Shown here: positions 17,888 through 54,084 of the stretch, piece after piece
Position numbering within the stretch: the stretch's first letter is position 1
How the letters are laid out: every line of letters starts with the position of its first letter
Assembly (NCBI RefSeq): GCF_900115125.1
Contig: NZ_FOVJ01000002.1
Coordinates: 372,001-436,000, forward strand
Direction of reading: 5' to 3'
Length of the DNA stretch: 64,000 nucleotides
From: Nitrosospira briensis
Lineage (GTDB): Bacteria; Pseudomonadota; Gammaproteobacteria; Burkholderiales; Nitrosomonadaceae
Translations under genes and position numbers: made by a program
Notes under the pieces: generated by a model
The model's database searches: none
What the model was told of the DNA's origin: nothing
The model's input: the letters and a program-made list of their open reading frames with translations, nothing else

Positions 17888-18997
17888 CTATCTCAGTCGT
17901 TGATAACGCCCGCCAGGCAGACTTGCCACCAGGCCATTCAATTCGAAAGCCAATAGCATCGCTGATACCCTTTCTACCGTCAAGCCGCTCCTGACACACA
18001 GGGAATCGATATTGGTAATGTCATGTCCCAGATACTTCAGCAGCACTGATTCGTCACCCTCAGGTTCATCAGCCTCACGGCGTTCACTATGGGCGGGCCG
18101 CCGGGATTTCAACTCGCCCGGCATTTCGTCTCTTAATTCATCCAGAATATCGCCGGCGCTTTCGACCAGTTTTGCCCCATCCTTGATGAGTGCATGGCAG
18201 CCTTTTGACAGAGGCGAATGAATGGAACCGGGGATGGCAAATACTTCTCGTCCCTGTTCCAATGCCTGTCTGGCAGTAATGAGCGAGCCGCTGCGTAGTG
18301 CGGCCTCCACCACAAGACACCCGTGGCTCATGCCGCTGATAATGCGATTACGGCGTGGAAAATTGCTGGCAATGGCCGGGGTGCCCAAGGGAAACTCGGA
18401 AATGAGCGCGCCCTTTTGCGCCAGTTCATGGGCCAACTCGCGATTGCTCGCCGGGTACACGAGATCCAGTCCGGTTCCTACTACTGCAATGCTGGCGGCG
18501 CCCCCCTGCAAGCCTCCACGGTGTGCCGCGGCATCGATACCGGAGGCCATTCCGCTGACGATACACAACCCCGCATTACTTGCCGCTTCAGCAAAAGCTT
18601 CCGCATTGGCAAGCCCCTGGGGCGTGGCATTGCGGCTCCCGACTATGGCGAGTTTCGATGACTTCAGCAGTTCGCGCTTTCCCTTTAGATAGAGGAGCGG
18701 AGGAGGGTCGGGAATGTTGAGCAGCAGCGAAGGGTAGTCGGAATCGGCGAGCGTAACAACCGAATTTGACGAGTCTTCCAGCCAGTCGAGCGAGGCAGTA
18801 ATCCTTTTTTCGTCCGCGCCCTGCACAATGTTGTACGCTACCTTTTTTTTTACCACCCGTTCGAGCGAGGCGATATTCGCGGAAAAAATTTTCGCGGGAC
18901 TTCCGAACGCTACCAGCAACCGCCGGGTTGAGTCGTCACCCAGGCCGTCAATCAAGCCAAGGGCGAGCCAGGCCTCGATATCGCTCATCGACTTCAT
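17888..18997 (-). CDS. dprA: DNA processing protein DprA (Smf)
   Basis: Start chosen at ATG 18997 with AAGGA 4-5 nt upstream, giving 369 residues; an in-frame extension to 19060 is possible. An N-terminal SAM/HhH-like region (WLALGLIDGLGDDSTRRLL) precedes the Rossmann-like DprA core with LAIVGSRNATPQG, SGMASGIDAAAHRG, VVGTGLDLVYP and SHGCLVVEA. The C-terminal winged helix (about residues 300-369) is the part that meets RecA or single-stranded DNA in some species. DprA loads RecA on incoming DNA during natural transformation. It is divergent from def, as in many proteobacteria. Confidence 0.93.
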   Translation of the reverse strand: MKSMSDIEAWLALGLIDGLGDDSTRRLLVAFGSPAKIFSANIASLERVVKKKVAYNIVQGADEKRITASLDWLEDSSNSVVTLADSDYPSLLLNIPDPPPLLYLKGKRELLKSSKLAIVGSRNATPQGLANAEAFAEAASNAGLCIVSGMASGIDAAAHRGGLQGGAASIAVVGTGLDLVYPASNRELAHELAQKGALISEFPLGTPAIASNFPRRNRIISGMSHGCLVVEAALRSGSLITARQALEQGREVFAIPGSIHSPLSKGCHALIKDGAKLVESAGDILDELRDEMPGELKSRRPAHSERREADEPEGDESVLLKYLGHDITNIDSLCVRSGLTVERVSAMLLAFELNGLVASLPGGRYQRLR

Positions 18998-19356
18998 TTT
19001 ATCCTTGTCAATGGTAGCTTTTTCTCGCGGGCACATGCGAACCGGTTGAATTGCCTGCATGACAGCGAAGCTGAACGGTTTGAACCGGGATACGTCTCAC
19101 GCGGACACTCGTCTGAAAAGAAAAGAAGATGTATCGCGCCCGCTCTCATTCTGAATCCGGGGGGGCGTGGCGCGAAGGCTGGAAAACGGGTTTCCTGCGA
19201 AATCAGATATAATGAACCTTACACCGAACCTGGAACAGCGTTTTCCGCCCTTAGAGGACGTGGAGGGAAATATCGTAACAGCACTGTTTGAATTTTGCAT
19301 TCAGATTATTTAATGTTCAAGCTCCGCTAGTTCCCGCAAACCCTGCAAACCTGTTT
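18998..19356. promoter_or_regulatory. divergent dprA/def control region
   Basis: A 359-nt region without a convincing gene. It holds a perfect TATAAT at 19208-19213 reading toward def, but no good -35 box at the right distance. It may carry promoters for both dprA and def; I see no operator or riboswitch structure. Confidence 0.35.
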
Positions 19357-19860
19357 ATGGCACTTCTAAAAATATTGCAATATCCGGATGAACGGCTGCA
19401 TACCATCGCGAGCCCGGTATCGGAAGTTACGCATGAAATTCGCACTCTGCTGGAGGATATGGCGGAAACAATGTATGCCGCGCCTGGAATTGGACTGGCG
19501 GCGACCCAGGTCGATGTGCATCTGCGGGCAATCGTGATTGACATTTCCGATACGCATGACCAGTTGCATGTGTTGATCAATCCAGAAATCATCTCGCAAA
19601 GCGGCGAATCCGAGTATGAAGAAGGTTGTTTGTCGGTACCGGGAATATTCGGGAAAGTACCACGCGCCGAGCGGATCACGGTCGAGGCGCTGGATCGGGA
19701 CGGAAAGCTTTACACACTTGAAGCCGATGGCTTGCTCGCCGTGTGTATTCAGCATGAAATAGATCATTTGGCAGGCAAGGTATTTGTCGAGTACTGGTCG
19801 CGGATGAAGCAAACGCGTATTCAGGCCAAATTCAAAAAGCAGCGGCGAAAAGTAATGTGA
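19357..19860 (+). CDS. def: peptide deformylase
   Basis: Start ATG at 19357 gives 167 residues beginning [14 protein letters not shown], the usual start of the family; longer in-frame forms from 19288 are unlikely. The three signature motifs are intact: [16 protein letters not shown] (metal Cys) and [12 protein letters not shown] (two metal His plus catalytic Glu). It removes the formyl group from nascent proteins. It is followed by fmt, which adds that formyl group, 99 nt downstream. Confidence 0.95.
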
Positions 19861-42076: not shown

Positions 42077-42425
42077 CAACGGCGAGAAAAACGGGTAAGA
42101 CCGCAGTCTGCTTCTTACTGAACGTCACGCCGGCTTATCCTCTAAGGTAACTGGCCTTCAGTCCATGACCCGCGCCTCCATGATGCATAATATCAGAAGC
42201 CCATGGGTCGCCGCTGGTAATCCTCTTTTCCTTATCCCTGGCTTCCCCGGTCTTCCACAAATAGCAGGTGCAGCCCCGTCTGCCCATTATTGTCTCCTTT
42301 TAGCGACAATAATATACGTTTATATACAGCCTGTTATCACCATCCATCCATTATTCGAGAATGTTTAGCGACAGTTGAGGCCTTGGGTCTGACGGTAACT
42401 ATCGGTTAATAAACGGGAAGAAATA
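42077..42425. other. non-coding stretch upstream of the FeeM-like gene
   Basis: No convincing gene in this stretch. Its main content is the inverted repeat at 42286-42313. The sequence runs on into a sigma-54 promoter at 42426 and then a 5' leader of about 250 nt before the next gene. Confidence 0.5.
42286..42313. promoter_or_regulatory. inverted repeat, candidate activator site or terminator
   Basis: ATTATTGTC (42286-42294) and GACAATAAT (42305-42313) are exact reverse complements with a 10-nt spacer. The centre lies about 150 nt upstream of the start expected from the sigma-54 promoter at 42426, a usual distance for a bacterial enhancer-binding protein. It might instead end the upstream operon, but the stem is AT-rich and no strong T-run follows. 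Confidence 0.4.
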
Positions 42426-42441
42426 TGGCATGATTATTGCT
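42426..42441 (+). promoter_or_regulatory. sigma-54 (-24/-12) promoter of the FeeM-like gene
   Basis: TGGCATGATTATTGCT matches the sigma-54 consensus TGGCAYRNNNNTTGCW at every fixed position. Transcription would start near 42452, giving a 5' leader of about 247 nt before ATG 42699. Sigma-54 control by PrsK/PrsR-type regulators is known for PEP-CTERM regulons, so the promoter suits its place. Confidence 0.8.
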
Positions 42442-42698
42442 CACTCGTAAGACAACGCAGGTTCACAACGATAAAATCGGGTTGCCGAACACGGTTGCCT
42501 TGCGGGTTTGACGCGATCTCTAGCAAATATTCCCTCCTTTACTGGTTCGACTTGATTCTTTATACATAACGAGATGACATAACTCATCCATCGAGGAGAA
42601 CGACGCGGTTGGGAGTCGCTTCAACCCCATGTCGCCATGTTGTCAATGTCGTATTTCTGACTTGAATTATCCCGATTAAAACCCTGGACACTACTCCC

Positions 42699-43532
42699 AT
42701 GCAATTAGATAATGGCAAAAACATTCGTCTTCATCGACCCGCGTCTTCTGTTGAAACCACTGAAGACCGTTTTGCTCCCCCCTGTCAACCGCGGATTGAA
42801 GAAAAACCTTCTTTGGCTCAAACGTCTGACCCGAGATGCGTTTTGAGACAAGGCAACTATAATATCTGTCTAGCTGATTCACCTGTACGGTGCAGCCTTG
42901 TGAGCAAGCTGATCAAGTGCATGTATTCTTGGCGAGGCTACCATACCGAGAACGCAGTAATTTCTTCGCATAACCCCAATCAATTCACACTTGAGGCATC
43001 GATCGAGCGGCATCCCGTCGGGACTCTCACTCTGGGGCTTGATTCAGAGGAAGGGCTGCTTGCCGACGAACTTTACAGACGGGAAATCAACGTTTTCCGC
43101 TCAAAACAAAGAAACGTCTGCGAGCTCTCCAAGCTCGCCGTAGACCCGCAGCATAGCTCAAAAGAAATATTGGCCTCGCTGTTTCACCTTGCTTATATCT
43201 ATGGGCGTAACCTCCACGGCGCGACCGACCTGTTTATCGAAGTCAATCCACGTCATGCACGGTTTTATAAACAGATGCTGGGGCTCCGCCAGATCGGAGA
43301 AAAACGCATGTGTCATCGGGTCAACGCTCCAGCTATCTTGATGCATCTGGATCTTGATTATGCTGACGACCAGATTGCTTTGGTGGTGGATTCGTGCGAA
43401 CCGAGGGAAAGGTCGCTTTATGCTTATTTTCTATCCAAGCATGAGGAGGAAAGGGTGACCCATACGCTTAGGCAGCGTATTCATGGCCGAAACGCTACGC
43501 AACCGTTTTCCCGGCAGATCCTGCACGCTTAG
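42699..43532 (+). CDS. FeeM-like N-acyl amino acid synthase, PEP-CTERM/exosortase-associated
   Basis: 277 residues, soluble. After a disordered N-terminal 50 residues the FeeM-like GNAT fold begins. Typical parts are LEASIERHPVGTLTLGLDS, CELSKLAVDPQHSSKEIL (the E(l/v)sKLav motif) and LFIEVNPRHARFYKQMLG with the late R(H/A)RFYk motif. These enzymes link a fatty acyl chain from ACP to an amino acid. A perfect sigma-54 promoter lies 258 nt upstream. The Shine-Dalgarno is weak. It is convergent with a PEP-CTERM gene; whether the product is a signal or a membrane lipid is not known. Confidence 0.8.
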   Translation: MQLDNGKNIRLHRPASSVETTEDRFAPPCQPRIEEKPSLAQTSDPRCVLRQGNYNICLADSPVRCSLVSKLIKCMYSWRGYHTENAVISSHNPNQFTLEASIERHPVGTLTLGLDSEEGLLADELYRREINVFRSKQRNVCELSKLAVDPQHSSKEILASLFHLAYIYGRNLHGATDLFIEVNPRHARFYKQMLGLRQIGEKRMCHRVNAPAILMHLDLDYADDQIALVVDSCEPRERSLYAYFLSKHEEERVTHTLRQRIHGRNATQPFSRQILHA

Positions 43533-43660
43533 GTTCACGATAACTATATTCTGTTCACTTATTGTCGATAGTCTTTACATACCCTAGAAACAATAAGTTG
43601 TTATCCTCCCCGAGAAAATCTTGGTACTGAATCTCGATAAATAACGGATTTTCATTGGGC

Positions 43661-43690
43661 AAAAAAAGGGGATCACTATGATCCCCTTTT
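43661..43690. terminator. bidirectional terminator between FeeM-like and PEP-CTERM genes
   Basis: GGGGATC (43668-43674) pairs with GATCCCC (43680-43686) around a 5-nt loop, with seven A before and four T after. It suits both converging transcripts. Confidence 0.85.
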
Positions 43691-43711
43691 ATAAAACTCC
43701 TGGTTGGCAGC

Positions 43712-44707
43712 TTATGCGCGACGGCGACGGCTCAGGCCCAAGCCCAGAATTCCCAATCCAACCAATGCCAGCGTCGCTGGCTCAGGAACGGCTTGGCGGG
43801 CATCCGCTTCAGCACTGGATCTGATGGTCAGTTGATAAGGCGTACCGGCGGTCAGCAGCGTGGTAGCGCTCCAACCGCCGTCAAATGCTACCCCCTCGCT
43901 CGCGCCCCTGAACCGAGCCAGATCATTAAGGAAGGGAGCATTGGCCGAGACGCTATCGTTTAACCTGAAGGGATCGATCTCTGCAGTAATTCCGAAGGCG
44001 CTAGCACCGCCGGCATTGCTTACACCGTCGGGAGACCAGGTGGCAACGTTGGCGCCCGTAAGCAGATTGTCAATGGTGAAGGTCAGGTTAAACGCTGCTG
44101 AAGCGGCGGTGGGGAACACCTCACCTGAGCCGTTCCAGGCTTCCAGGTAGGCGCGCGCATCGAACCTGATCTCGAACGCGCCGTCGTTGCCCATTTCGAA
44201 TACAAAGCCGGATTGCAGGCCATTGTTGGCCGTGCTGCTGCCATCAGCGAAGCTATCCAGAACCACATAGGCGCCGTGCGAGGCCGTTGCAGGAGCACTG
44301 ATAGGTGTTCCATTAACTACCAGGCCGGTTATGGGCGAGCCGAATTGCGACTGATCCGCCAGGGAAAACGTCGACGCGGACGGATTGGAGTAGACCGCGT
44401 AGCTGTTTTCAGTGTATCCCGGCACCGGGGTGCCCAGGACTATGTGAGCCATGTCGATGTCCTCGCCTGCACGAGTCATTTCATTGCTCAAGGTTGTCCC
44501 ATTCAGCGAAGTGGATATGTCCGCCGTATTCGTGGGGCCGATTGCGGAAAAATCGCTTCTATCCAATATGTTGCCCGCCCCATCCCGGAAAGTAAGATTT
44601 CTGATATCCAATATCGAGGTGGCCAGGGCGGTGGCTTGCGCTGTGCCGACAACCGACATCGCCGCCAAGGCAAAACCAGTGGCAAGCGCTAATTTTTTTA
44701 ACTTCAT
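43712..44707 (-). CDS. PEP-CTERM sorting-domain protein
   Basis: 331 residues. A signal peptide (MKLKKLALATGFALAAMSVVGTAQA region, cleavage near residue 25) is followed by a beta-rich secreted domain with many Asn, Thr, Ser and Asp and no Cys. The tail, from Val307, is VPEPATLALVGLGILGLG, then LSRRRR: a PEP motif, one helix and an Arg cluster, the signal cut by exosortase (EpsH). GGAG precedes the ATG. A sigma-54 promoter lies 70 nt upstream. The protein is probably released to the outer surface or matrix; its own function is unknown. No exosortase gene is in the window. Confidence 0.93.
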   Translation of the reverse strand: MKLKKLALATGFALAAMSVVGTAQATALATSILDIRNLTFRDGAGNILDRSDFSAIGPTNTADISTSLNGTTLSNEMTRAGEDIDMAHIVLGTPVPGYTENSYAVYSNPSASTFSLADQSQFGSPITGLVVNGTPISAPATASHGAYVVLDSFADGSSTANNGLQSGFVFEMGNDGAFEIRFDARAYLEAWNGSGEVFPTAASAAFNLTFTIDNLLTGANVATWSPDGVSNAGGASAFGITAEIDPFRLNDSVSANAPFLNDLARFRGASEGVAFDGGWSATTLLTAGTPYQLTIRSSAEADARQAVPEPATLALVGLGILGLGLSRRRRA

Positions 44708-44776
44708 ATGTTCTCCGTTATAAATTATGTTGAATCATGTTACTTCAGGTACTTCTTTTTCCGACAATACTTATTA

Positions 44777-44792
44777 AGCACAGACTGTGCCA
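44777..44792 (-). promoter_or_regulatory. sigma-54 (-24/-12) promoter of the PEP-CTERM gene
   Basis: On the minus strand TGGCACAGTCTGTGCT matches TGGCAYRNNNNTTGCW with a single change (G for the first T of TTGC). The expected start lies near 44767, about 60 nt before ATG 44707. Confidence 0.75.
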
Positions 44793-45207
44793 CCTTTAAA
44801 GAGTAACGTTAACCTGATGACTCTTAAGGTCATTTTTTCCTCAAATGAGGAATTTACCAGTAGCTACGAGGAGGACTGTAAGAAAACCCGACACTTCGGC
44901 TCGGCCCGCTGGTTTATAATTCCGCAGGAGTGAAAATCTCTTTATTTGGGTTCGGCTCCCGCCCTCACCTCACGAGAACCTTTTCCGAGAGCCTGCTGTT
45001 GAGCATCCGATCTAGTGAAGCAGCTGAAGAATCGATATCTCAGGCTCATCCTCGTGCAATATACCCGCGGCAGAATATAGGGTCAATGCATATGAACCTG
45101 CTTAACAGCTGGAAAAAACAATGGCCAGCTTCCTTCCCTCCAGATATTTCTGTGCATGCCACCCGTCATCCGATGACGATACCGGCTGAACCGAGGACCT
45201 GTACCCG
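44793..45207. other. non-coding region between PEP-CTERM gene and permease genes
   Basis: About 415 nt without a gene I can support. It contains the short palindrome CCTCAAATGAGG (44838-44849) and a 6-bp dyad AAGAGT/ACTCTT just upstream of the PEP-CTERM sigma-54 site, either of which could bind its activator. No sigma-54 or clear sigma-70 promoter was seen for the plus-strand permease at 45208. Confidence 0.4.
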
Positions 45208-46437
45208 GTGAGAATATTCTGGCTTGACTTTAATTTGGCGTTTCGGAATGTCATCCGCCAAAAACGCCGTAGCGCGATCGCGGTAGGAGCGGTTACGTTC
45301 GGCATCACGGCGCTCATCCTGGCGAACGGTTTTATAGAGTGGATTTTTCTCGATTTTCGGGAATCCACGATCAAATCGCAATTGGGCCACCTGCAAATCG
45401 TGCGTCCAGGCTATCATGACGCGGGAAAAGCGGACCCCTTTGCCTTTTTGCTGCCGGATGCCGTCCCCGAACTCGAAACACCAGGTGAACCGGCGGAAAT
45501 CAAGGCAGTCGCTACGCGCCTCTCTTTCAGTGGCCTGATCAGCCATGGTGAGGCGACCATTTCGTTTATCGGTGACGGCGATGACCCCCGGCAACAAACG
45601 GTTTTCGGCGATGCCTTGCAAATTTCCGCAGGTCGGCATCTCTCCCTCGACGATCCACTGGGAATCATAGTGGGCGAAGGCCTTGCGCGTAACCTGGGCG
45701 TGGGCGTTGGCGACCAGGTCATATTATTGGCGACCACCGCATCGAGAGGAACCAATGCGGTGGAGGTTACGATACGCGGCCTTTTCTCCACGGTTACCAA
45801 GTCTTACGACGACGCCGCGCTGCGCATGCCCATTGAAACAGCACGGCAATTGCTCCGCACAAAAGGTTCTCATGTCTGGATGGTGTTACTGAACGATACC
45901 GCGCAAACAGACCCCATGCTTGCGAAATTTCGCGACAAGCTGCAAAAGGAAAAGCTTGAAATTGTTCCATGGTATGCACTGGCCGACTTCTACAACAAGA
46001 CTGTCACACTGTTCACCAGGCAAATCTACGGTATCAGGCTGATCATAGCCATTATCATCCTTCTCAGCATTACGAATACCATGACGATGAGCGTAATGGA
46101 GCGTATCGGGGAAATCGGCACTTCCATGGCGCTAGGCGTGAAGCGCATGGGCATTATGCGTCTATTCATTAGCGAAGGGGTTCTCATCGGCTGCTTTGGG
46201 GGGATATCAGGCTTGCTGCTGGGGATTTTTTTCGCCCATATGATCTCAGCTGCCGGGATTCCAATGCCGCCCCCTCCCGGGATGGCGCGGGGCTATACCG
46301 GGCAGATTCTCGTTACCTGGGACATCGCACTGGAATCGCTCACGCTTGCCGTCGGCACGACACTGATCGCGAGCGTATACCCTGCCTGGCGTGCATCGAG
46401 AATGCAGATCGTCGATGCCTTAAGGCACAACCGGTAG
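45208..46437 (+). CDS. FtsX/MacB-type ABC transporter permease (first of a tandem pair)
   Basis: 409 residues from a GTG start. One N-terminal helix (SAIAVGAVTFGITALILANG), a periplasmic domain of about 210 residues, and three C-terminal helices (about 270-290, 315-345, 370-395): the MacB/LolC/FtsX layout. FRNVIRQKRRSAIAV is the cytoplasmic entry helix. AAGIPMPPPPGMARGYTG sits in the loop before the last helix. Such permeases move lipids, lipoproteins or peptides out of the inner membrane and do not carry a substrate channel. The cognate ATPase is the minus-strand gene at 49499-50281. Confidence 0.9.
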   Translation: MRIFWLDFNLAFRNVIRQKRRSAIAVGAVTFGITALILANGFIEWIFLDFRESTIKSQLGHLQIVRPGYHDAGKADPFAFLLPDAVPELETPGEPAEIKAVATRLSFSGLISHGEATISFIGDGDDPRQQTVFGDALQISAGRHLSLDDPLGIIVGEGLARNLGVGVGDQVILLATTASRGTNAVEVTIRGLFSTVTKSYDDAALRMPIETARQLLRTKGSHVWMVLLNDTAQTDPMLAKFRDKLQKEKLEIVPWYALADFYNKTVTLFTRQIYGIRLIIAIIILLSITNTMTMSVMERIGEIGTSMALGVKRMGIMRLFISEGVLIGCFGGISGLLLGIFFAHMISAAGIPMPPPPGMARGYTGQILVTWDIALESLTLAVGTTLIASVYPAWRASRMQIVDALRHNR

Positions 46438-46446
46438 TTACCAAGA

Positions 46447-47658
46447 ATGTTCAAGCTTGCGTTGCGCAATATCTTTCGACAGAAATCGCATACAGCCATG
46501 ACGCTGGCAGCAATCATTGGCGGAGTAGCGGGGCTTATCGTTGCCGGCGGCTGGGTAAACGATATCTTCGTGCAACTATCCGAAGCGCTCATACATTCCC
46601 AATCGGGGCATTTGCAGGTTTATAAAAAAGGATTTTTTGCCGAGGGCGCCCGTGCGCCGGAGAAATATCTGATAGCCGCGCCTGACGCCATCAAAAGCAG
46701 CATTGCTGCCGAGGCCGAGGTTGCCGGCGTGATGGCGCGGCTGAATTTCTCCGGACTGCTCAACAATGGCCGCAGTGACCTCCCCATAATCGGTGAAGGG
46801 GTGGAAGCAGGGCCCGAAGCCGTACTTGGAAGCTCTGTCTCCATCATCGCGGGACGCCAACTGGAGGACAAGGATTCGTTTGGCGTCCTGCTCGGACAGG
46901 GTGTCGCACAGGGGTTGAAACTGAAACCCGGCGACTACGTGACAGTGCTTGCGAATTCCCTCGAGGGTGCCCTGAACAGTATCGATCTCCAAGTGATTGG
47001 GGTATTCCAGAGCTTCTCCAACGACTATGACGCCCGCGCAATAAAAATTCCGCTCGCGGCCGCCCAGGAATTGCTCGGCACGGAGAGCGTGAACGCGCTC
47101 GTGATCTCCCTGAATAAAACCAGTGACACCGATCACGTCGCAGCGCACTTGAAGGAACAACTCGGCGTATTGGGTCTGGAAATCAAGACCTGGGTTGAAC
47201 TAAATGATTTTTACGAAAAAACCGTGGAAATGTATAAGGGCCAGTTCGGCGTTCTGCAATTGATCATTCTCGTCATGGTTCTGTTGAGTGTTGCCAACAG
47301 TGTAAACATGAGCATTTTCGAACGTATGGGAGAATTTGGCACGATGATGGCGCTTGGCAACCGTAGAAGCCTGGTATTCCGATTGATCGTAACCGAAAGT
47401 GTATTGATCGGAGTGATCGGCAGTTGCCTCGGGCTTGCGCTTGGCCTGGCGCTGGCATTCGTTATCTCTGCAATCGGCATTCCGATGCCCCCACCTCCAA
47501 ACGCCAATATCGGTTATACCGCGCACATCCAGGTTCTCCCCCCGGTCTTGCTGATGTCCTGCGCCATTGGCATTGCTGCAACAGCCTTGGCGGCTATACT
47601 GCCGGCAAGGCATGTTTCCCGGACGCCGGTGGTTGAGGCGCTGCGGCAGAACTTCTGA
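46447..47658 (+). CDS. FtsX/MacB-type ABC transporter permease (second of a tandem pair)
   Basis: 403 residues, nine nt after the first permease stop. It is clearly its paralogue: FRNIFRQKSHTAMTLAAIIG against FRNVIRQKRRSAIAV, the SGHLQVYK strand against LGHLQIVR, and AIGIPMPPPPNANIGYTA against the same loop. Helices as in the first gene. The pair would form a LolC/LolE-like heterodimer. Downstream lies a 189-nt convergent gap with the porin gene. Confidence 0.9.
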   Translation: MFKLALRNIFRQKSHTAMTLAAIIGGVAGLIVAGGWVNDIFVQLSEALIHSQSGHLQVYKKGFFAEGARAPEKYLIAAPDAIKSSIAAEAEVAGVMARLNFSGLLNNGRSDLPIIGEGVEAGPEAVLGSSVSIIAGRQLEDKDSFGVLLGQGVAQGLKLKPGDYVTVLANSLEGALNSIDLQVIGVFQSFSNDYDARAIKIPLAAAQELLGTESVNALVISLNKTSDTDHVAAHLKEQLGVLGLEIKTWVELNDFYEKTVEMYKGQFGVLQLIILVMVLLSVANSVNMSIFERMGEFGTMMALGNRRSLVFRLIVTESVLIGVIGSCLGLALGLALAFVISAIGIPMPPPPNANIGYTAHIQVLPPVLLMSCAIGIAATALAAILPARHVSRTPVVEALRQNF

Positions 47659-47847
47659 TTTCGATATGCCGTAGGGTTGAACCATTTATCGGGGCTATTA
47701 CCGGCACGAAAATACTGCTAATTTTTCCGATCTTGTTACTCTGGCTCGGCCTGAAATCAAGCCCAGCCAAGCAAGGCGTGCTTTACCCGCCAATACTCGC
47801 TTCCGGCGCCAAGATGTCTGTATTCCTTCCCTACGGAATCAATAGCA

Positions 47848-49515
47848 TCAGAATGAATAGCGCAATTCGGTATAGACGCGGTCATTATTTTGGAAACGGC
47901 CAAACAAGCCGGTAGGTCCTCCCCCAAAAACGTCAGCCCCCAGCGCCCAGCGCCAGTTCCTCTCAAATTGCCAGGTCAGCCGCGGGCGGAACATCCAGTC
48001 GCTGCGGTTCAGGCTGTGGATCAGTAGTGCCTGTCCTTCGAGTTTCCGCCAGAGCTTGGCGTTGAGAAGAATGCTGGCGCCATTCTCTACCCTGTCTGAA
48101 AAATTGTCGCGGTCATACGCGAAAAAAACACGCTGAAAAAATTGAAGATTCAGGCGTGTGTCGGCCGGCAGGTTGAAGTCCAGGCCAACTGCATAATCCA
48201 GGGTATCTTGCCTGACGAGTCCATTCATTGCGGTGGGTCGTGAGACGTTAAATTTGCGCCCGTCTGTATAGACCAGCTCGCCTTTAAGCACAACCGAACC
48301 AAAATCCTTGGAAACGGTTGCACCGACCTGATCGATGTCATCATGCCGAGGCTGAAATACCAGGGGCTCGGTTGGCCCGCTGACACGGTAGAAGGTGGAA
48401 GCGGCATCCAGGCTGTGGTAGTAAAAACCCGAAATATCCCAGCCCTTTACCAGTTGCGATACCCGAAGCCCGTAATTCGAGTTTCCGACGTTGCGCCCCG
48501 ACCGGTCTTCCCCCAGGAAGGAAGCGTTTGCGCGTAGCGGACCGGGGTAAAAGTCTGCGCCCGGCTTGCCGATCTCGTCAATAGTTGGCACTGGAATCCA
48601 GAGCACCTCAACATGGGTATCATTCCTTGAATATTCGGCCCGCATTGCCCACTGCGGGATACGCATTATATCGAATGACGGCAGGATGAATTCGCGCATA
48701 TCCTTCGCGGATACCACGTCAGCGAAAAACAACCCTACCATCTCGCCCCATATCACGTGTTGACGGCCAAGGCGGAAATCGAAGTTTCCTGCTGAAATAT
48801 CGAGATAGTTTTCCCGAATAAAGAAGTCATAGCGTTGATCCTGCCGCACTGCGGAGGGATAAAAGCCGGATAAATCATAGGCAGCGTCATAATCGAACCG
48901 GCCGCTTACTTTCCATTTTATATGCTCGTTGAATTGTCCCGTCCTCGACAATTCAGTTCGCAGTTTCGCTTTGGAAAAATGCTCCGGGCTGCTATAGTTA
49001 TCCGCGATTTCCAGTTGAGAGAATCCCCTCCAGCCGGTCACCAATTTCTTCCATGCCGGCTCGGATGACGCCTCCTTTCGCGGCTGTTCATCATCCCCGA
49101 ATAGGGACTCGCGCGAAACGGGTTCATCGCCGGGCTTTTTGCCAATAGCGACCGTATCTGTATCTACAGTGTCTTTGGCCATGTCTTTAGCTGCCAGAAC
49201 CAAGGATGAAGATATGGATAGAGACAAAGGCAAAGAAAGGGTTTCAGCCCCATCAGCTGCCGTAATATCCATATCTTTAACGGGGGGTGCGGGAGATAAG
49301 GCTGTCTGACGAAGGGACGGCGGCGTCATGGATAAAGACAGGGACAGGAATAAAGGCTCGCCTTCCTCATTGTCGGACAGCGAATTAGACGGAGCGTAGG
49401 CCACGAGAGTCCCGGAATGAGATGTTTCAGACCCGGCAAAGCTGAGTAGCGGCGAGGCGACAACAATCAGTGCGCCAACAAAGGCGGAATATTCAAATTT
49501 ACGTCTGCGTTCCAT
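47848..49515 (-). CDS. outer-membrane beta-barrel protein (DUF1302-like)
   Basis: I start it at ATG 49515 (MERRRKFEYSAFVGALIVV), giving 555 residues with a signal peptide ending near LLSFAGS; an in-frame start at 49608 lies deeper inside the ATPase gene. Residues about 30-150 are low complexity with repeated SLSLS and KDMDIT/KDMAKDT segments. From about 180 a barrel of alternating strands runs to the C-terminal Phe (YTELRYSF), typical for BAM-inserted porins. RQHVIWGEMVGLFFADVV resembles the qvv.WGe motif of DUF1302 proteins, which accompany LolA-like proteins and lipid exporters. It overlaps the ATPase gene by 17 nt. Confidence 0.78.
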   Translation of the reverse strand: MERRRKFEYSAFVGALIVVASPLLSFAGSETSHSGTLVAYAPSNSLSDNEEGEPLFLSLSLSMTPPSLRQTALSPAPPVKDMDITAADGAETLSLPLSLSISSSLVLAAKDMAKDTVDTDTVAIGKKPGDEPVSRESLFGDDEQPRKEASSEPAWKKLVTGWRGFSQLEIADNYSSPEHFSKAKLRTELSRTGQFNEHIKWKVSGRFDYDAAYDLSGFYPSAVRQDQRYDFFIRENYLDISAGNFDFRLGRQHVIWGEMVGLFFADVVSAKDMREFILPSFDIMRIPQWAMRAEYSRNDTHVEVLWIPVPTIDEIGKPGADFYPGPLRANASFLGEDRSGRNVGNSNYGLRVSQLVKGWDISGFYYHSLDAASTFYRVSGPTEPLVFQPRHDDIDQVGATVSKDFGSVVLKGELVYTDGRKFNVSRPTAMNGLVRQDTLDYAVGLDFNLPADTRLNLQFFQRVFFAYDRDNFSDRVENGASILLNAKLWRKLEGQALLIHSLNRSDWMFRPRLTWQFERNWRWALGADVFGGGPTGLFGRFQNNDRVYTELRYSF

Positions 49516-50281
49516 CCGTCTCACTTTGACCGGCAGCTCGATCCGGAGGATTATCCCTCTCGCGCCGCTGCTTGGCCGACAAGCTGGTCTCCTGCTCCTC
49601 CGCCTCATGCCTTACGATTTGCCCGTCCTCTATGCGTACCAGCCGGTTAGCCATTTCCATGACGCGCCGGTCATGAGTAGAAAAAATAAAGGTTGTCCTG
49701 AAGCTGCCGTTGATATCCTTCATCAATTGCAGAATGCCTTCGCCGGTTTTGTGATCGAGATTCGCGGTTGGCTCGTCAGCCAGCACGATCTTTGGTTGCG
49801 TTGCCAGCGCGCGCGCTATCGCCACTCGCTGCCGCTGCCCCCCGCTAAGCTGGTTGGGCCGGTGGCGGGCGAACCTGGAAAGACCTACGATCGCAAGATA
49901 TTTTGAAACCCGGCTGCGGCGCTCCGTGACGCTCAGCTCCTTGAATTGCAGCAAAGGATACTCGACGTTCTCTGCAGCCGAAAGAACGGGAAACAAGTTA
50001 AACGTCTGGAAAATAAAACCGATAGCGCGCGCCCTGAGGTCGGACAACTCATCTGGCGTGCGTCCGCTGATATCCTGATGATCTATAAATATTTTTCCAA
50101 GAGACGGGGTATCGATACATCCGATCAGATTCAGCAAAGTCGACTTGCCACTGCCCGACGGACCCGCGATCGCCATGAAGGAGCCATCTTCAATACTCAA
50201 CGAGATGTCGTTAAGTGCGCAGACTTGCTGTTCACCGAGGGTATACTCTTTGAAAACATGCTCAAGCCGTACTATGCTCAT
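49499..50281 (-). CDS. LolD/MacB-type ABC transporter ATP-binding protein
   Basis: 260 residues with Walker A GPSGSGKSTLL, Q-loop FIFQTFNLFPVLSA, signature LSGGQRQRVAIARAL and Walker B IVLADEPTANLD. NLFPVLSAAENVEYPLL is typical of the LolD/MacB/FtsE branch, which pairs with FtsX-type permeases. The C-terminal 30 residues (rich in Glu, Arg, Gln) are an extension. It is convergent with the two permeases and divergent from the LolA-like gene, with 64 nt between. Confidence 0.93.
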   Translation of the reverse strand: MSIVRLEHVFKEYTLGEQQVCALNDISLSIEDGSFMAIAGPSGSGKSTLLNLIGCIDTPSLGKIFIDHQDISGRTPDELSDLRARAIGFIFQTFNLFPVLSAAENVEYPLLQFKELSVTERRSRVSKYLAIVGLSRFARHRPNQLSGGQRQRVAIARALATQPKIVLADEPTANLDHKTGEGILQLMKDINGSFRTTFIFSTHDRRVMEMANRLVRIEDGQIVRHEAEEQETSLSAKQRRERDNPPDRAAGQSETDGTQT

Positions 50282-50345
50282 GAAAATTATCCTAAAGGGC
50301 AGATCCCAAGAGCGTCAGGGATAAGCATCCATAACAGGAGCCAAA

Positions 50346-51098
50346 ATGCAAAAATTTTCGCAATACCTTTTTACTATGATTTGCCTGTTTGTTGCGGTGG
50401 CGTCCGCCCGATCGGACGACGCGGAATTAGCTCGAGATATATTGGAAAAATCCGACCAGATACGCTTCCCCCGGGAGAGCTTCCAGGTCGATGTCAATAT
50501 CAATACCACTGCACCTGACCAGCCTGTCGACATGCACAAGTTCCGCGTCTTATCCAAAGGCAATGAAAACAGCGTGGTGATGACTACCGAGCCTGCGTCA
50601 GAGAGGGGCCAGATTCTACTGATGAAAGGACGCGATCTGTGGATATTCATGCCTAGCGTTTCGCAACCCATACGCCTATCATTGTCGCAACGGCTTACGG
50701 GTCAAGTTGCCAACGGCGACCTGGCACGTGCGAACTTTACCGGCGATTACACACCTACTATTTTACGTACCGAGGTCATCGATGGCGAGAAATACTGGGT
50801 ACTGGAGCTTCTCGGCGTTGACCGAAGCGTCACGTATCATAAGGTCTTATTCTGGGTACGGCAATCTAATTTCTGGCCATACCGTGCGGAGTTCTACTCG
50901 CTATCCAACCGGCTGCTTAAAACCAGCCGCTATGAAAATTTCGAGATGACTCTAGGAAAGTTGCGTCCGACCCGCCTGGTTATGGAAGATGCGCTCCATA
51001 AGGATGAGGTGTCCGTACTGGAATATTCTGGCATGAAGTTACGAGACCTGCCAGACAAGATCTTCACTAAGGATTACTTGAAAAAACTGGAGCAGTAA
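50346..51098 (+). CDS. LolA-like outer-membrane lipoprotein-sorting protein
   Basis: 250 residues with a signal peptide (FSQYLFTMICLFVAVASA, then RS). The mature protein is a run of beta strands: FQVDVNINTT, NSVVMTTEPAS, GQILLMKGRDLWIFMPSVS and RPTRLVMEDALHKDEVSVLEY, as in the large LolA-like family near MMPL or ABC exporters. It would carry a lipid or lipoprotein from the inner-membrane transporter across the periplasm. AGGAG precedes the ATG by 6 nt. Confidence 0.85.
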   Translation: MQKFSQYLFTMICLFVAVASARSDDAELARDILEKSDQIRFPRESFQVDVNINTTAPDQPVDMHKFRVLSKGNENSVVMTTEPASERGQILLMKGRDLWIFMPSVSQPIRLSLSQRLTGQVANGDLARANFTGDYTPTILRTEVIDGEKYWVLELLGVDRSVTYHKVLFWVRQSNFWPYRAEFYSLSNRLLKTSRYENFEMTLGKLRPTRLVMEDALHKDEVSVLEYSGMKLRDLPDKIFTKDYLKKLEQ

Positions 51099-51269
51099 CG
51101 AGCCGTGGCATTACCAGAGGAGGGTTATATGCAATGTCTCGTTTATAGTGTGAAAGGTTATTTTTCCGGAACACTCGGTCCAACGAAGTCAGCAGCCGGT
51201 TTATCGGGTAATGCTTCCTTGCAGATTGAATTGTGATCCGGGGAAGGACCCTATCAGTTCCCCCAATCC

Positions 51270-52283
51270 ATGAACCGACCAAAATCCCTTCCGCCGGCAC
51301 TGCTCGGCGATAAAAATAGTTTGTCTGATCACGCGCGTGCGGAGATACTTGATCTCAACGGGGCCAGACCACAGGCATTCCTATGGCAGGCATTCGGTGC
51401 CTGGGCCGTAATTATCGCAACGATTACCCTTGCCACTCATGTCGATAGCGTCTGGATGAGTGTCCTCGCCATAATTATAGTCGCGACGAGGTTTAATATC
51501 TTTGCTCTATTGGTGCATGAGCAGGTGCATTTTCTTGGGTTACGTGGGCGCTATGGCGATTTGATCGCAGATCTGTTGGTGGCTTATCCATTATTCGGTG
51601 TCACGGTGGAAAGTTATGCAAAGGTACACCTGTCGCATCACAAATTTTACTTCACTGAAAAAGATCCGGATCATTTACGTAAGGCGGGTGTGGATTGGAC
51701 CTTTCCGATGTCCCATTCACATCTTGCCAGACTTTTGATAAGTGATGTGACGGGCTTGAGTTTCATAAAACTTTTGAAAGGAAAGCGCCACGAAAACACG
51801 AATTTTTTCGGGCGCCCCCGTCCTTCCCCAAAATGGACTCGGCCCGTGTTTTATCTTCTGGTGGGCGCATTATTGACTTACACGGGTGCATGGAGCATCT
51901 TTCTGATGTACTGGGTGTTGCCCTTGCTTACTGTTTTTCCGCTTATCGTGCGACTCGGGGCGGTAAGCGAACATGTATACAATTTGCCCGGTGCCAGCGT
52001 CATCGAGTCCTCGCCACTCATTATACAAAAATGGTGGGAAAAACTTTTATTGCCCAATCTCAATTTTACATTTCACGCTTACCATCACTTCTACCCAGGG
52101 ATTGCATGGATCAACTTGCCAAAAGTACATGAAATCTTTGCTCGGGAGAAGCTTCTAAGCGAGCAACATATATTTCAAGGGTATTGGGCCTACCTGAGAT
52201 ATTTGCAGTCTTTGGGGGATAAGTCTTCAGCGATGGCGACAACGCCCGGCCCTGCTCCCGCCCGTAATCCCCGCAATACCTAG
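51270..52283 (+). CDS. membrane fatty-acid desaturase family protein
   Basis: 337 residues with four predicted helices and three His boxes: HEQVH (83-87), HLSHH (120-124) and HAYHH (269-273), the di-iron site of membrane desaturases and hydroxylases. YSRK-type substrate contacts cannot be read. The family puts a double bond or hydroxyl on an acyl chain, either on ACP or on a membrane lipid. Its place beside acyltransferases suggests it modifies the acyl group of the proposed lipid. The C-terminal 20 residues are low-complexity. Confidence 0.9.
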   Translation: MNRPKSLPPALLGDKNSLSDHARAEILDLNGARPQAFLWQAFGAWAVIIATITLATHVDSVWMSVLAIIIVATRFNIFALLVHEQVHFLGLRGRYGDLIADLLVAYPLFGVTVESYAKVHLSHHKFYFTEKDPDHLRKAGVDWTFPMSHSHLARLLISDVTGLSFIKLLKGKRHENTNFFGRPRPSPKWTRPVFYLLVGALLTYTGAWSIFLMYWVLPLLTVFPLIVRLGAVSEHVYNLPGASVIESSPLIIQKWWEKLLLPNLNFTFHAYHHFYPGIAWINLPKVHEIFAREKLLSEQHIFQGYWAYLRYLQSLGDKSSAMATTPGPAPARNPRNT

Positions 52284-52291
52284 CTCGTCGC

Positions 52292-53167
52292 TCATGTAAG
52301 GTCTTTTCCGGCTTTTATACGCGCGAGTTGCCTGCGAGCGATCCACAAACTGATACGCTGCAAAATATTTCGATTACCGCCCGGCCGCCAGGTTTTCACG
52401 AACCGATTGCAGTAAGCATCAAAATGATAGCCTCGTGGAGCAGAAATCGTTTTACCCCGGTCGAGCAGGATCTTTAAAACGTCGACAGCCGCGAGTCCGG
52501 CACACATTTGGCATGCTGCAATGGTTGAGGGACTTCGCCTCTCCTCGAAATTTACCCGGCTAGGATCCGCAAGATAGCCGCGCTGCAGCATCGCCGGGGA
52601 GAGCCCGAGCAGGAAGCGAATCGCCATCTCCTCCTCGTCGCATCCTTCCAGGCAAAAATACTGTTCAAAAGACATCCCCCCGGGCAGAAACACCAGCACA
52701 GCCGCCCCCATGCCCAGTGGCGCAGCAGTAACAGCAGGAATGCCCAAACGAAAGCATGCAGCAAAAACCGCGCGTCGAATGGCAATGGCAAAGAAGTCGA
52801 GTCCGTCTACATAAATATCGACATCCTTTAGAAAATCATCCAGGTTGGAAAGCGTAATACCTTCGGAAAACTGCCGAATGTTTAGCCCCGGATTGATATC
52901 CCATGCCATCTCGGCCAGCATCTGGACTTTGGGCCTGCCGAGGGACGATACCGCAGCACCTGCTTGCCTATTGAAATTTGCGAGTTCAAAAGTATCGAAA
53001 TCGGCAATGTTGAACGCTCCAATTCCCAGCCTCGCCAAGGTGAGCAAATGGCCGCCACCAACACCTCCCATGCCTGCAATGGCGACCCGCTTCCGGCGCA
53101 GGATCGCCTGCTCCTTTTCCGTAACCCAGCCAATATTGCGGGAAAAGGCAACTTCGTAATCAAAAAT
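52292..53167 (-). CDS. ThiF/MoeB/HesA-family adenylating enzyme, apparent ATT start
   Basis: No ATG, GTG or TTG can begin the domain. The frame stays open to a TAG at 53180-53182 and reads FDYEVAFSRNIGWVTEKEQ before AGMGGVGGGHLL. Within this stretch only ATT (53167-53165) lies at good distance (6 nt) from a ribosome site, AAGGGG, and gives a start reading (M)FDYEVAFSRNIGW as in relatives I recall. From there 291 residues: GxGGxG at 32-38 and DFDTFELANFNRQ at 55-67 for ATP, a CQMC pair but no second Cys pair. It adenylates a carboxylate in a substrate yet unknown. The first ATG inside the frame (53071) would cut the ATP site. Confidence 0.8.
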   Translation of the reverse strand: MFDYEVAFSRNIGWVTEKEQAILRRKRVAIAGMGGVGGGHLLTLARLGIGAFNIADFDTFELANFNRQAGAAVSSLGRPKVQMLAEMAWDINPGLNIRQFSEGITLSNLDDFLKDVDIYVDGLDFFAIAIRRAVFAACFRLGIPAVTAAPLGMGAAVLVFLPGGMSFEQYFCLEGCDEEEMAIRFLLGLSPAMLQRGYLADPSRVNFEERRSPSTIAACQMCAGLAAVDVLKILLDRGKTISAPRGYHFDAYCNRFVKTWRPGGNRNILQRISLWIARRQLARIKAGKDLT

Positions 53168-53270
53168 AGCGTTCCCCTTCTAAGAACAGCATTTCTGCTT
53201 CAGATAATCGTATCCGTGGCCGTAAATATATTAAGAAATGCCTCGGATCAATCAGGCCGATACCCATCAT
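53160..53270 (-). CDS. possible short ORF of 36 residues ahead of the ThiF gene
   Basis: ATG at 53270 has AGGGG about 5 nt upstream and encodes MMGIGLIDPRHFLIYL up to LEGERYF, ending at TGA 53160-53162, overlapping the ThiF start by eight bases in another frame. Its end would join smoothly with ThiF by a -1 shift on TTTTT. It could be a leader for coupled translation, a frameshifted N-terminus, or chance. No family recognised. Confidence 0.25.
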   Translation of the reverse strand: MMGIGLIDPRHFLIYLRPRIRLSEAEMLFLEGERYF

Positions 53271-53340
53271 TCGATCCCCTGGCTTATCCCTCCGAGAGAT
53301 AATTCCGCCAGTTAGTCTAAAAGTACCGCAGGAAACCGCT

Positions 53341-54084
53341 ATGTTCTTACCCGAAATTTTTAATCTTGGCAGCGCCTTCAAACAATACTTTGAAATCGTA
53401 CCCGCTTACTCCAGGGAACTAAAGGATGAAGTCTATCGGGTACGGCATCAGGTTTATTGTGAAGACCTGGAATTCGAATCGGTGCAACCGGACAGGCGGG
53501 AAATCGACGAGCATGATCCGTACTCGCTACATCTGCTGATGCGCAGCGTGAAGACAAACGAATTCGTGGGCTGCACCCGCATCGTCTGCCCTCGACCCGA
53601 GAATCCGGGCTACCCCTTGCCTTTCGAAACAACCTGTGCGGCCACTCTTGACCGGTCTATCATTGATCCCGCGCTGCTGCCGCGCCATCGTATAGCTGAA
53701 GTATCCCGCCTCGCGGTCATATCCCGCTATCGCAGGCGTAAAGGCGAAGCAAATAGCGCCATTGGCATCTCGCGCGAAGATTTTGGCACTCCAAAGCAAC
53801 CGCGCTTTCCATTCATTCCGATCGGCCTGTATCTTGGCACCACGGAATTGGCGCGTCTGAACGGGATCGACACCTTATTCGTGTTGACGGAACGACGCCA
53901 AGTGGCGCATTTTAGTAAACTGGGCGTCAAGCTTCAAGTGATCGGCAAGGCGGTCGAGCACCGCGGAGAACGCGTTCCTTCCGTAATGAACGTCACCAGC
54001 ATTATCGACAACATGCGGAGCGTCTTCCGGTCGCTTTATCGTACCATTGCAGAGGACGTTGAAAGAGGTATTAAGCAGGAATAA
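53341..54084 (+). CDS. PEP-CTERM/exosortase system-associated acyltransferase
   Basis: 247 residues resembling the exosortase-associated acyltransferase family (TIGR03694-like), itself related to N-acyl-homoserine lactone synthases: VYRVRHQVYCEDLEFES matches the (f)RlRyqVyc.e.gfe start, FVGCTRIVCPRP the following strand and IAEVSRLAVISRYRRRK the E(v/i)SRlav motif. AGGAA stands 6 nt before ATG. It joins an acyl group to an amino-acid or amine. It is divergent from ThiF and precedes Rh50. Confidence 0.85.
   Translation: MFLPEIFNLGSAFKQYFEIVPAYSRELKDEVYRVRHQVYCEDLEFESVQPDRREIDEHDPYSLHLLMRSVKTNEFVGCTRIVCPRPENPGYPLPFETTCAATLDRSIIDPALLPRHRIAEVSRLAVISRYRRRKGEANSAIGISREDFGTPKQPRFPFIPIGLYLGTTELARLNGIDTLFVLTERRQVAHFSKLGVKLQVIGKAVEHRGERVPSVMNVTSIIDNMRSVFRSLYRTIAEDVERGIKQE

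Follow-up and report, generated by a model that had tools for sequence, protein, structure and literature searches.

What does a bacterium do with a gene island in which putative lipid synthases stand side by side with the parts of a lipid transporter? The question is raised by a stretch of 64,000 nucleotides from Nitrosospira briensis, an ammonia-oxidising soil bacterium (contig NZ_FOVJ01000002.1, positions 372,001 to 436,000); this whole stretch is called the window here, and positions are counted from its first letter. Between 42426 and 54084, N-acyl amino-acid synthase (NAS) genes, a five-gene transport set, tailoring genes and a PEP-CTERM gene form one island. The transport set comprises two MacB/FtsX permeases, a LolD-like ATPase, a LolA-like carrier and a DUF1302 barrel. 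A first-pass annotation of this DNA had proposed that all these parts build one path, from the synthesis of an acylated amino-acid lipid to its release at the outer membrane. Every gene that it named is present and was confirmed by family searches. Our own reading, held with moderate confidence, is that the island probably serves synthesis, tailoring and dedicated envelope export of N-acyl amino-acid lipids. The same gene grouping is seen in many PEP-CTERM-bearing relatives, which suggests a dedicated envelope lipid route.

The first synthase is of the FeeM type (42699 to 43532, plus strand). In the family model search its PF21926 domain (4.8e-54) reached 182.8 bits, the cut-off being 27. Its Glu142, located in the sequence CELSKL, aligns with the glutamate of AEVVQF at chain index 96 of the FeeM structure 2G0B, which we take, assuming an offset of one residue, to be the catalytic Glu95 of FeeM (PMC4897644). 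The second synthase (53341 to 54084, plus strand) is an exosortase-associated acyltransferase of the TIGR03694 family (2.4e-76), with 256 bits against a curated cut-off of 112; two further TIGR03694 proteins over the cut-off are encoded elsewhere in the genome. No solved structure matched this enzyme or the desaturase of the island at E 0.01. Craig et al. (2011) are said to describe the TIGR03694-type acyltransferase as a NAS family. Both synthases are putative producers of N-acyl amino acids.

The transport genes fill the middle of the island. Permease A (45208 to 46437, plus strand) and permease B (46447 to 47658, plus strand) are conserved neighbours, each with a MacB_PCD and an FtsX domain. 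The gene of the DUF1302 outer-membrane barrel (47848 to 49518, minus strand; PF06980, 8.4e-14) probably starts at 49518, its open reading frame (ORF) spanning 47848-49608. Upstream of it on the same strand lies the ATP-binding cassette (ABC) ATPase of the LolD/DevA/MacB type (49499 to 50281), and the LolA-like periplasmic carrier (50346 to 51098, plus strand; PF17131, 3.9e-49) diverges from the latter.

Is this simply a Lol system? Two FtsX/MacB-type permeases, a LolD-like ATPase and a LolA-fold carrier are indeed what LolCDE-LolA consists of. The scores, however, are far below the respective cut-offs: 102.7 and 91.9 bits for the permeases with the lolCE model, which demands 362, and 214 bits for the ATPase with LolD, its best model, which demands 308. 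Also, the set differs from LolCDE-LolA by its DUF1302 barrel and the adjacent NAS genes. A canonical LolCE gene is encoded elsewhere in the same genome (L200, near 18588-19835; G000:C13:198597), and a canonical Lol identity of the set was not upheld in view of the scores and this separate gene. The canonical LolCE gene is found about 11 kilobases (kb) from an exosortase gene at C13:186854. With MacAB-TolC the set shares the MacB_PCD and FtsX domains, but the island ATPase is a separate protein, and neither a MacA-like adaptor nor a TolC-like channel was seen among the ten island proteins scanned; MacAB-like drug efflux, lacking the adaptor and a fused ATPase-permease, was not upheld either. 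Permeases that accompany a known MacAB or Lol system only would have contradicted the first-pass annotation; this was not observed.

The carrier itself is a member of the LolA superfamily, as judged from its PF17131 domain and from 3BUU and LolA structures as neighbours. By fold it falls into the LolA/LolB class; LppX and LprG are more remote matches. The nearest solved relative, 3BUU, is NE2245 of Nitrosomonas europaea; it belongs to the same subfamily, is 76% identical and was solved as an uncharacterised protein, and no paper on it was found in the open-licence literature. The AlphaFold model of the DUF1302 protein has a mean predicted local distance difference test (pLDDT) of 67, about 150 N-terminal residues being of low confidence. 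Its nearest folds among the matches listed are porin-like barrels, with a template modelling (TM) score of about 0.5 to the target and a root-mean-square deviation of 8-11; these matches are too weak to name a function.

The first-pass annotation had suggested comparing gene neighbourhoods, and this comparison came out in its favour. The order was sampled with 250 genomes, of which 27 contain LolA (threshold 200 bits), 90 exosortase (60), 49 FeeM (80), 44 ThiF (300), 27 TIGR03694 (over its cut-off) and 60 NAS of either kind; eight weaker exosortase matches had been dropped. Wherever LolA occurs, in 27 of 27 genomes, it is accompanied by an exosortase (p 5.8e-14) and by a NAS. The NAS lies within 20 kb of LolA in 22 of them, an exosortase within 40 kb in nine. 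Transport genes and acyltransferases that occur independently in most genomes would have spoken against the first-pass proposal, and these counts show the contrary. Within the 90 exosortase genomes, LolA is present in 27 of the 58 with NAS and in none of the 32 without (p 3.8e-7). These Fisher tests ignore relatedness, the LolA genomes spanning 12 families. ThiF behaves similarly: all 44 ThiF genomes contain a NAS, in 40 of them within 12 kb.

The set occurs beyond the order as well. A sample of 249 genomes of the class contained LolA in eight, the window's own genome included. In each of the seven outside the order, both permeases, ATPase, LolA and DUF1302 protein are encoded in one 20 kb stretch, which likewise speaks for the first-pass proposal. 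ThiF is present in four of these stretches (fused to a nitroreductase domain in two) and a TIGR03694-like protein in four. A PF21926 match over the cut-off was obtained in all seven genomes, at most 10 kb from LolA in five, at least 27 kb away in one and on another contig in one; in four of the seven the best match is weak (29-41 bits), a level also given by TIGR03694-type proteins. Unrelated genes that had become neighbours by chance in a single genome might well be found on both strands and with several intergenic gaps, as they are in the island. This possibility can practically be dismissed: recurrence in 27 of 250 genomes of the order, each with NAS, and in seven more among 249 of the class has already refuted it.

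More serious is the idea of a second, specialised sorting pathway of the Lol kind, in which the transport set would serve a lipoprotein of the exosortase system, e.g., the tetratricopeptide repeat (TPR) protein PrsT, and its proximity to NAS genes would just reflect shared exosortase regions. The set does resemble LolCDE/LolA, genes for PrsT-like TPR proteins are close to it in L192, L194 and L195, and in a number of Rhodocyclales the LolA loci are near XrtA polysaccharide genes. Yet among exosortase genomes the set is restricted to those with NAS, as counted above, and the genome already owns its canonical LolCE. Moreover, one permease clade, the second (11 rows from 6 genomes), travels with ThiF-type cassettes, ThiF being present in every row. 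A porin-like DUF1302 barrel is not known as part of a Lol system, which we also count against lipoprotein sorting. All in all, we consider such a pathway unlikely.

Closer relatives show the linkage, too. Among 100 genomes of the family, by our own count, a strong FeeM (over 100 bits) was seen in 34 and a full-length LolA of the window type in 30; the latter aligns from model position 1 with 160-182 bits and is set apart by score from a second LolA type with 190-211 bits. Where both occur, they are within 20 kb on one contig in 20 of 27 genomes; of the remaining seven, five have them on separate contigs and two at distances of about 45 kb and 886 kb. When 40 chosen family stretches were mapped, a recurrent core emerged, consisting of permease A, permease B, DUF1302 protein, ATPase, LolA and acyltransferase. 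The permeases can be exchanged: in six genomes of the same genus (L068, L072, L077, L080, L083, L098) a distant pair replaces the usual one, adjoined by the ATPase in three of them (L068, L072, L083), while LolA stays near that of the window (74-84% identity).

When the genome collection was searched with the LolA alignment, 280 relatives came up; the best 80 were retained as loci, many of which end at contig ends. DUF1302 protein, ATPase and LolA are together in 77 of the 80, and the ATPase is the same-strand neighbour of the DUF1302 gene in 71 cases. Permeases were seen in 45 loci, the TIGR03694-type enzyme in 46, ThiF in 20 and nitroreductase in 17. A NAS of either type is present in 52 of the 80, and in 34 of the 50 loci of at least 20 kb, as counted with our own models; these were derived from the family and could overlook distant forms.

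The genes between NAS and transport set are variable. They comprise ThiF/nitroreductase, a flavin oxidase, a glycosyltransferase, methyltransferases, a hexapeptide acyltransferase, a GDSL lipase and an AMP ligase. In the window island a ThiF-family enzyme (52292 to 53167, minus strand; PRK08223, 5.3e-118) is accompanied by a membrane protein of the diiron FA_desaturase/hydroxylase family (51270 to 52283, plus strand; PF00487, 9.4e-31) with the His boxes HEQVH, HLSHH and HAYHH. The first-pass annotation had ascribed a generic adenylation to ThiF. By its family context it rather resembles the cyclases TyzB and OxzB, and the known precedent is the cyclisation of N-acyl amino acids to oxazolones. 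NAS, ThiF and nitroreductase are the enzymes of the published oxazolone/dehydrotyrosine pathway, TyzABC and OxzAB (PMC10404671). The same combination, split or fused, is found in the TrzAS acyl-oxazolone cluster (PMC12856293), in the stieleriacine clusters (PMC12479983) and in those for thalassotalic and kyonggic acids. In our loci, too, ThiF and nitroreductase are either separate or fused, as in L069.

The genome of N. briensis has such a set at a second locus. There FeeM, ThiF and nitroreductase are consecutive (6322-10593 of L101, G000:C10:1035001-1055000), as in the Oxz/Tyz clusters, with a PEP-CTERM gene beside them; the nitroreductase-family relative at C10:1042539 is 57% identical. The window island shares with these clusters the NAS and the linked ThiF, but differs from them by the missing nitroreductase, the diiron desaturase and the transport set.

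The ThiF gene deserves a closer look, as its ORF by translation table 11 (52292-53071) is devoid of the first part of the ATP-binding fold. A broken or frameshifted gene was nevertheless rejected, because the frame continues open upstream to about 53167 (295 amino acids), because an ATT codon after a purine-rich stretch (window 53150-53170) is found at the same place in the related species L073, and because non-synonymous (dN 0.11) and synonymous (dS 1.70) divergence from L073 reveal strong purifying selection on the frame. Translation from a probable AUU start is the likelier reading, although unproven.

The flavin oxidase belongs to the p-cresol methylhydroxylase/vanillyl-alcohol oxidase family. 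Its matches, p-cresol methylhydroxylase and oxidases of vanillyl alcohol and eugenol, suggest a para-hydroxyphenyl substrate. Counted at 60 bits or more, it never meets ThiF: none of the 80 LolA loci contains both (ThiF 20, oxidase 14; p 0.012), nor does any of the 45 with permeases (19 and 13; p 1.4e-4). Over 120 loci, some genomes being counted twice, the oxidase was never seen together with ThiF or nitroreductase. The permease tree, built by a quick method without bootstrap, requires 10 or more changes from one state to the other, and the exclusion has thus arisen repeatedly. The ThiF set and the flavin oxidase may be alternative oxidations of an N-acylated para-hydroxyphenyl amino acid, which would favour tyrosine.

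How is synthesis tied to the PEP-CTERM system? The FeeM gene has a sigma-54-type (-24/-12) promoter, TGGCATGATTATTGCT (42426 to 42441, plus strand), and its first base, 42426, is the position with which the first-pass annotation let its unit begin. Nowhere else in the 64 kb window is TGGCAYRNNNNTTGCW matched without a mismatch. This pattern was picked from the general consensus after inspection of the FeeM upstream stretch; with up to two mismatches, it is no commoner than expected by chance (39 found, 36.3 expected). The PEP-CTERM gene (43712 to 44707, minus strand; EDSAP-1 family, NF041538, 1.9e-74) has a promoter of the same type with one mismatch at 44777 to 44792 on the minus strand. Haft et al. 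(2006) described a motif pair before PEP-CTERM genes, an activator motif 1 and a -24/-12 motif 2 (PMC1569441), and the promoter of the window's PEP-CTERM gene with its upstream box may fit this pair. In the island, the -24/-12 motif 2 of that regulon is present upstream of FeeM and the PEP-CTERM gene only.

Relatives behave alike. In the 40 family stretches, with site weights set by hand from the general consensus and a site counted if it exceeded the 99% level of 1000 random window stretches, a sigma-54-type site precedes FeeM in 25 of 31 cases and PEP-CTERM genes in 33 of 36. Ten further gene families from this part of the genome were examined, i.e., the TIGR03694 enzyme, LolA, ATPase, permease A, ThiF, flavin oxidase, GDSL lipase and three housekeeping genes, and 0 of 181 cases had such a site. 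The timing of FeeM thus seems to follow that of the PEP-CTERM cargo, which is not so for the tested transport genes. Since these, ThiF and the TIGR03694 gene are devoid of the promoter, there is no common regulon. The boxes further upstream differ as well: GCGACA in 17 of 25 FeeM genes versus TTTACA in 21 of 37 PEP-CTERM genes, perhaps a sign that FeeM responds to another activator. The box of the window's PEP-CTERM gene reads TGTCG...CTTACA, the described activator motif 1 ending in TTTACA. GCGACA boxes occur at 42290-42426, upstream of the FeeM sigma-54 site, and in relatives.

A considerable number of observations weigh against export of the NAS product by the neighbouring set. In 35 of the 80 LolA loci the permeases were not found in the available DNA, and in many Accumulibacter loci they are not beside the core. 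FeeM itself is present in just nine of the 80, and with our models no NAS was found in 28 (16 of the 50 loci of at least 20 kb). In the order sample, five of the 27 LolA genomes have no NAS inside 20 kb, and 33 of the 60 NAS genomes have no LolA of the window subfamily. FeeM occurs without an adjoining exporter in L065, L067, L102 and L103; in the first two (G014, G052) LolA is reduced to remnants with stop codons, and the stretch contains no transport set. The match of FeeM to 2G0B amounts to just 7.5e-9, a nitroreductase was not found among the proteins of the window island, and the promoters of FeeM are not those of the tested transport genes. The desaturase, which the first-pass annotation had included in its unit, is present here but rare elsewhere (10 of 40 loci in the family, two of 80 in the wider LolA set). 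As an aside, L065 and L067 retain FeeM, desaturase and TIGR03694 gene.

Some of these findings would be expected if NAS and tailoring genes on the one hand and the transport set on the other were separate modules of an exosortase/exopolysaccharide toolkit, the transporter moving another envelope lipid or a polysaccharide-linked glycolipid. The differing promoters, the four loci with FeeM and no adjoining exporter, the 28 loci without detected NAS and a glycosyltransferase in 12 of the 80 loci are compatible with this idea. It is at variance with the proximity of the genes, which is seen in many families and also beyond the order, and with the absence of the LolA subfamily from NAS-less exosortase genomes, and we regard it as rather improbable. 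Of the single path proposed initially, the recurrent linked unit has stood; its genes do not form one regulon, its tailoring enzymes vary, some relatives have FeeM with no exporter beside it, and export itself follows by inference.

Product, transported substrate, direction and export itself we infer from gene linkage and from the resemblance to known families. In the first step, FeeM and the TIGR03694 enzyme would transfer an acyl chain from acyl-acyl carrier protein onto an amino acid. Exchangeable tailoring enzymes would then alter the acyl amino acid: in many relatives ThiF and nitroreductase, by oxazolone cyclisation and desaturation, in others the 4-cresol/vanillyl-alcohol-type flavin oxidase, and in the window island ThiF and the diiron desaturase, the nitroreductase being available only at the second locus. 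Permeases A and B with the LolD-like ATPase may extract the lipid from the inner membrane by the mechanotransmission principle of LolCDE/MacB. The LolA-like protein would ferry it through the periplasm, and the DUF1302 barrel would take it up at the outer membrane. The sigma-54 promoter of FeeM would couple NAS output to the PEP-CTERM/exosortase programme.

Part of this is not new. The linkage of NAS with PEP-CTERM was published by Craig, Cherry and Brady in 2011, as related in citing papers: their metagenomic fee/NAS genes include a FeeM-type NAS beside a PEP-CTERM gene. The linked ABC/LolA/DUF1302 set, the alternative cassettes and the shared sigma-54 promoter were not found in these citing accounts. 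The oxazolone-type enzyme set is known likewise. The first-pass annotation knew of no description of the combined unit; of the exporter we, too, found none among the matches listed from open-licence papers. Within the same scope, we found no account of the restriction of the transport set to genomes with NAS and exosortase, of the mutually exclusive cassettes or of the promoter that FeeM has in common with PEP-CTERM genes.

Screens of soil metagenomes find N-acyl amino acids again and again, and what these do physiologically is called unclear (PMC4897644); the fate of acyl-tyrazolones is still to be found, export being possible (PMC10404671). The conserved five-gene set beside the synthases is a direct candidate exporter, with 3BUU as a solved structure of its uncharacterised carrier. 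It also bears on the exosortase system. In Methylomonas LW13, disruption of an exosortase-associated NAS impaired the formation of a polysaccharide band, and complementation restored it, although the mutant also failed to multiply in the device used (PMC11072679). One may go further and speculate about the lipid partner that the exosortase system is missing: the exported N-acyl amino acid, or its reactive oxazolone, might take this place as an outer-membrane anchor or acceptor for PEP-CTERM proteins or exopolysaccharide. This would explain why FeeM and PEP-CTERM genes have their promoter in common and why LolA, in the order sample, is confined to genomes with NAS and exosortase. However, 32 of 90 exosortase genomes are without NAS at the thresholds used, and we give this speculation very little credit.

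The island is embedded in housekeeping genes, RsmE, AhpC-like and IMPase on one side, Amt, RNase G and Maf on the other; the name Maf is our own reading, the others having been checked.

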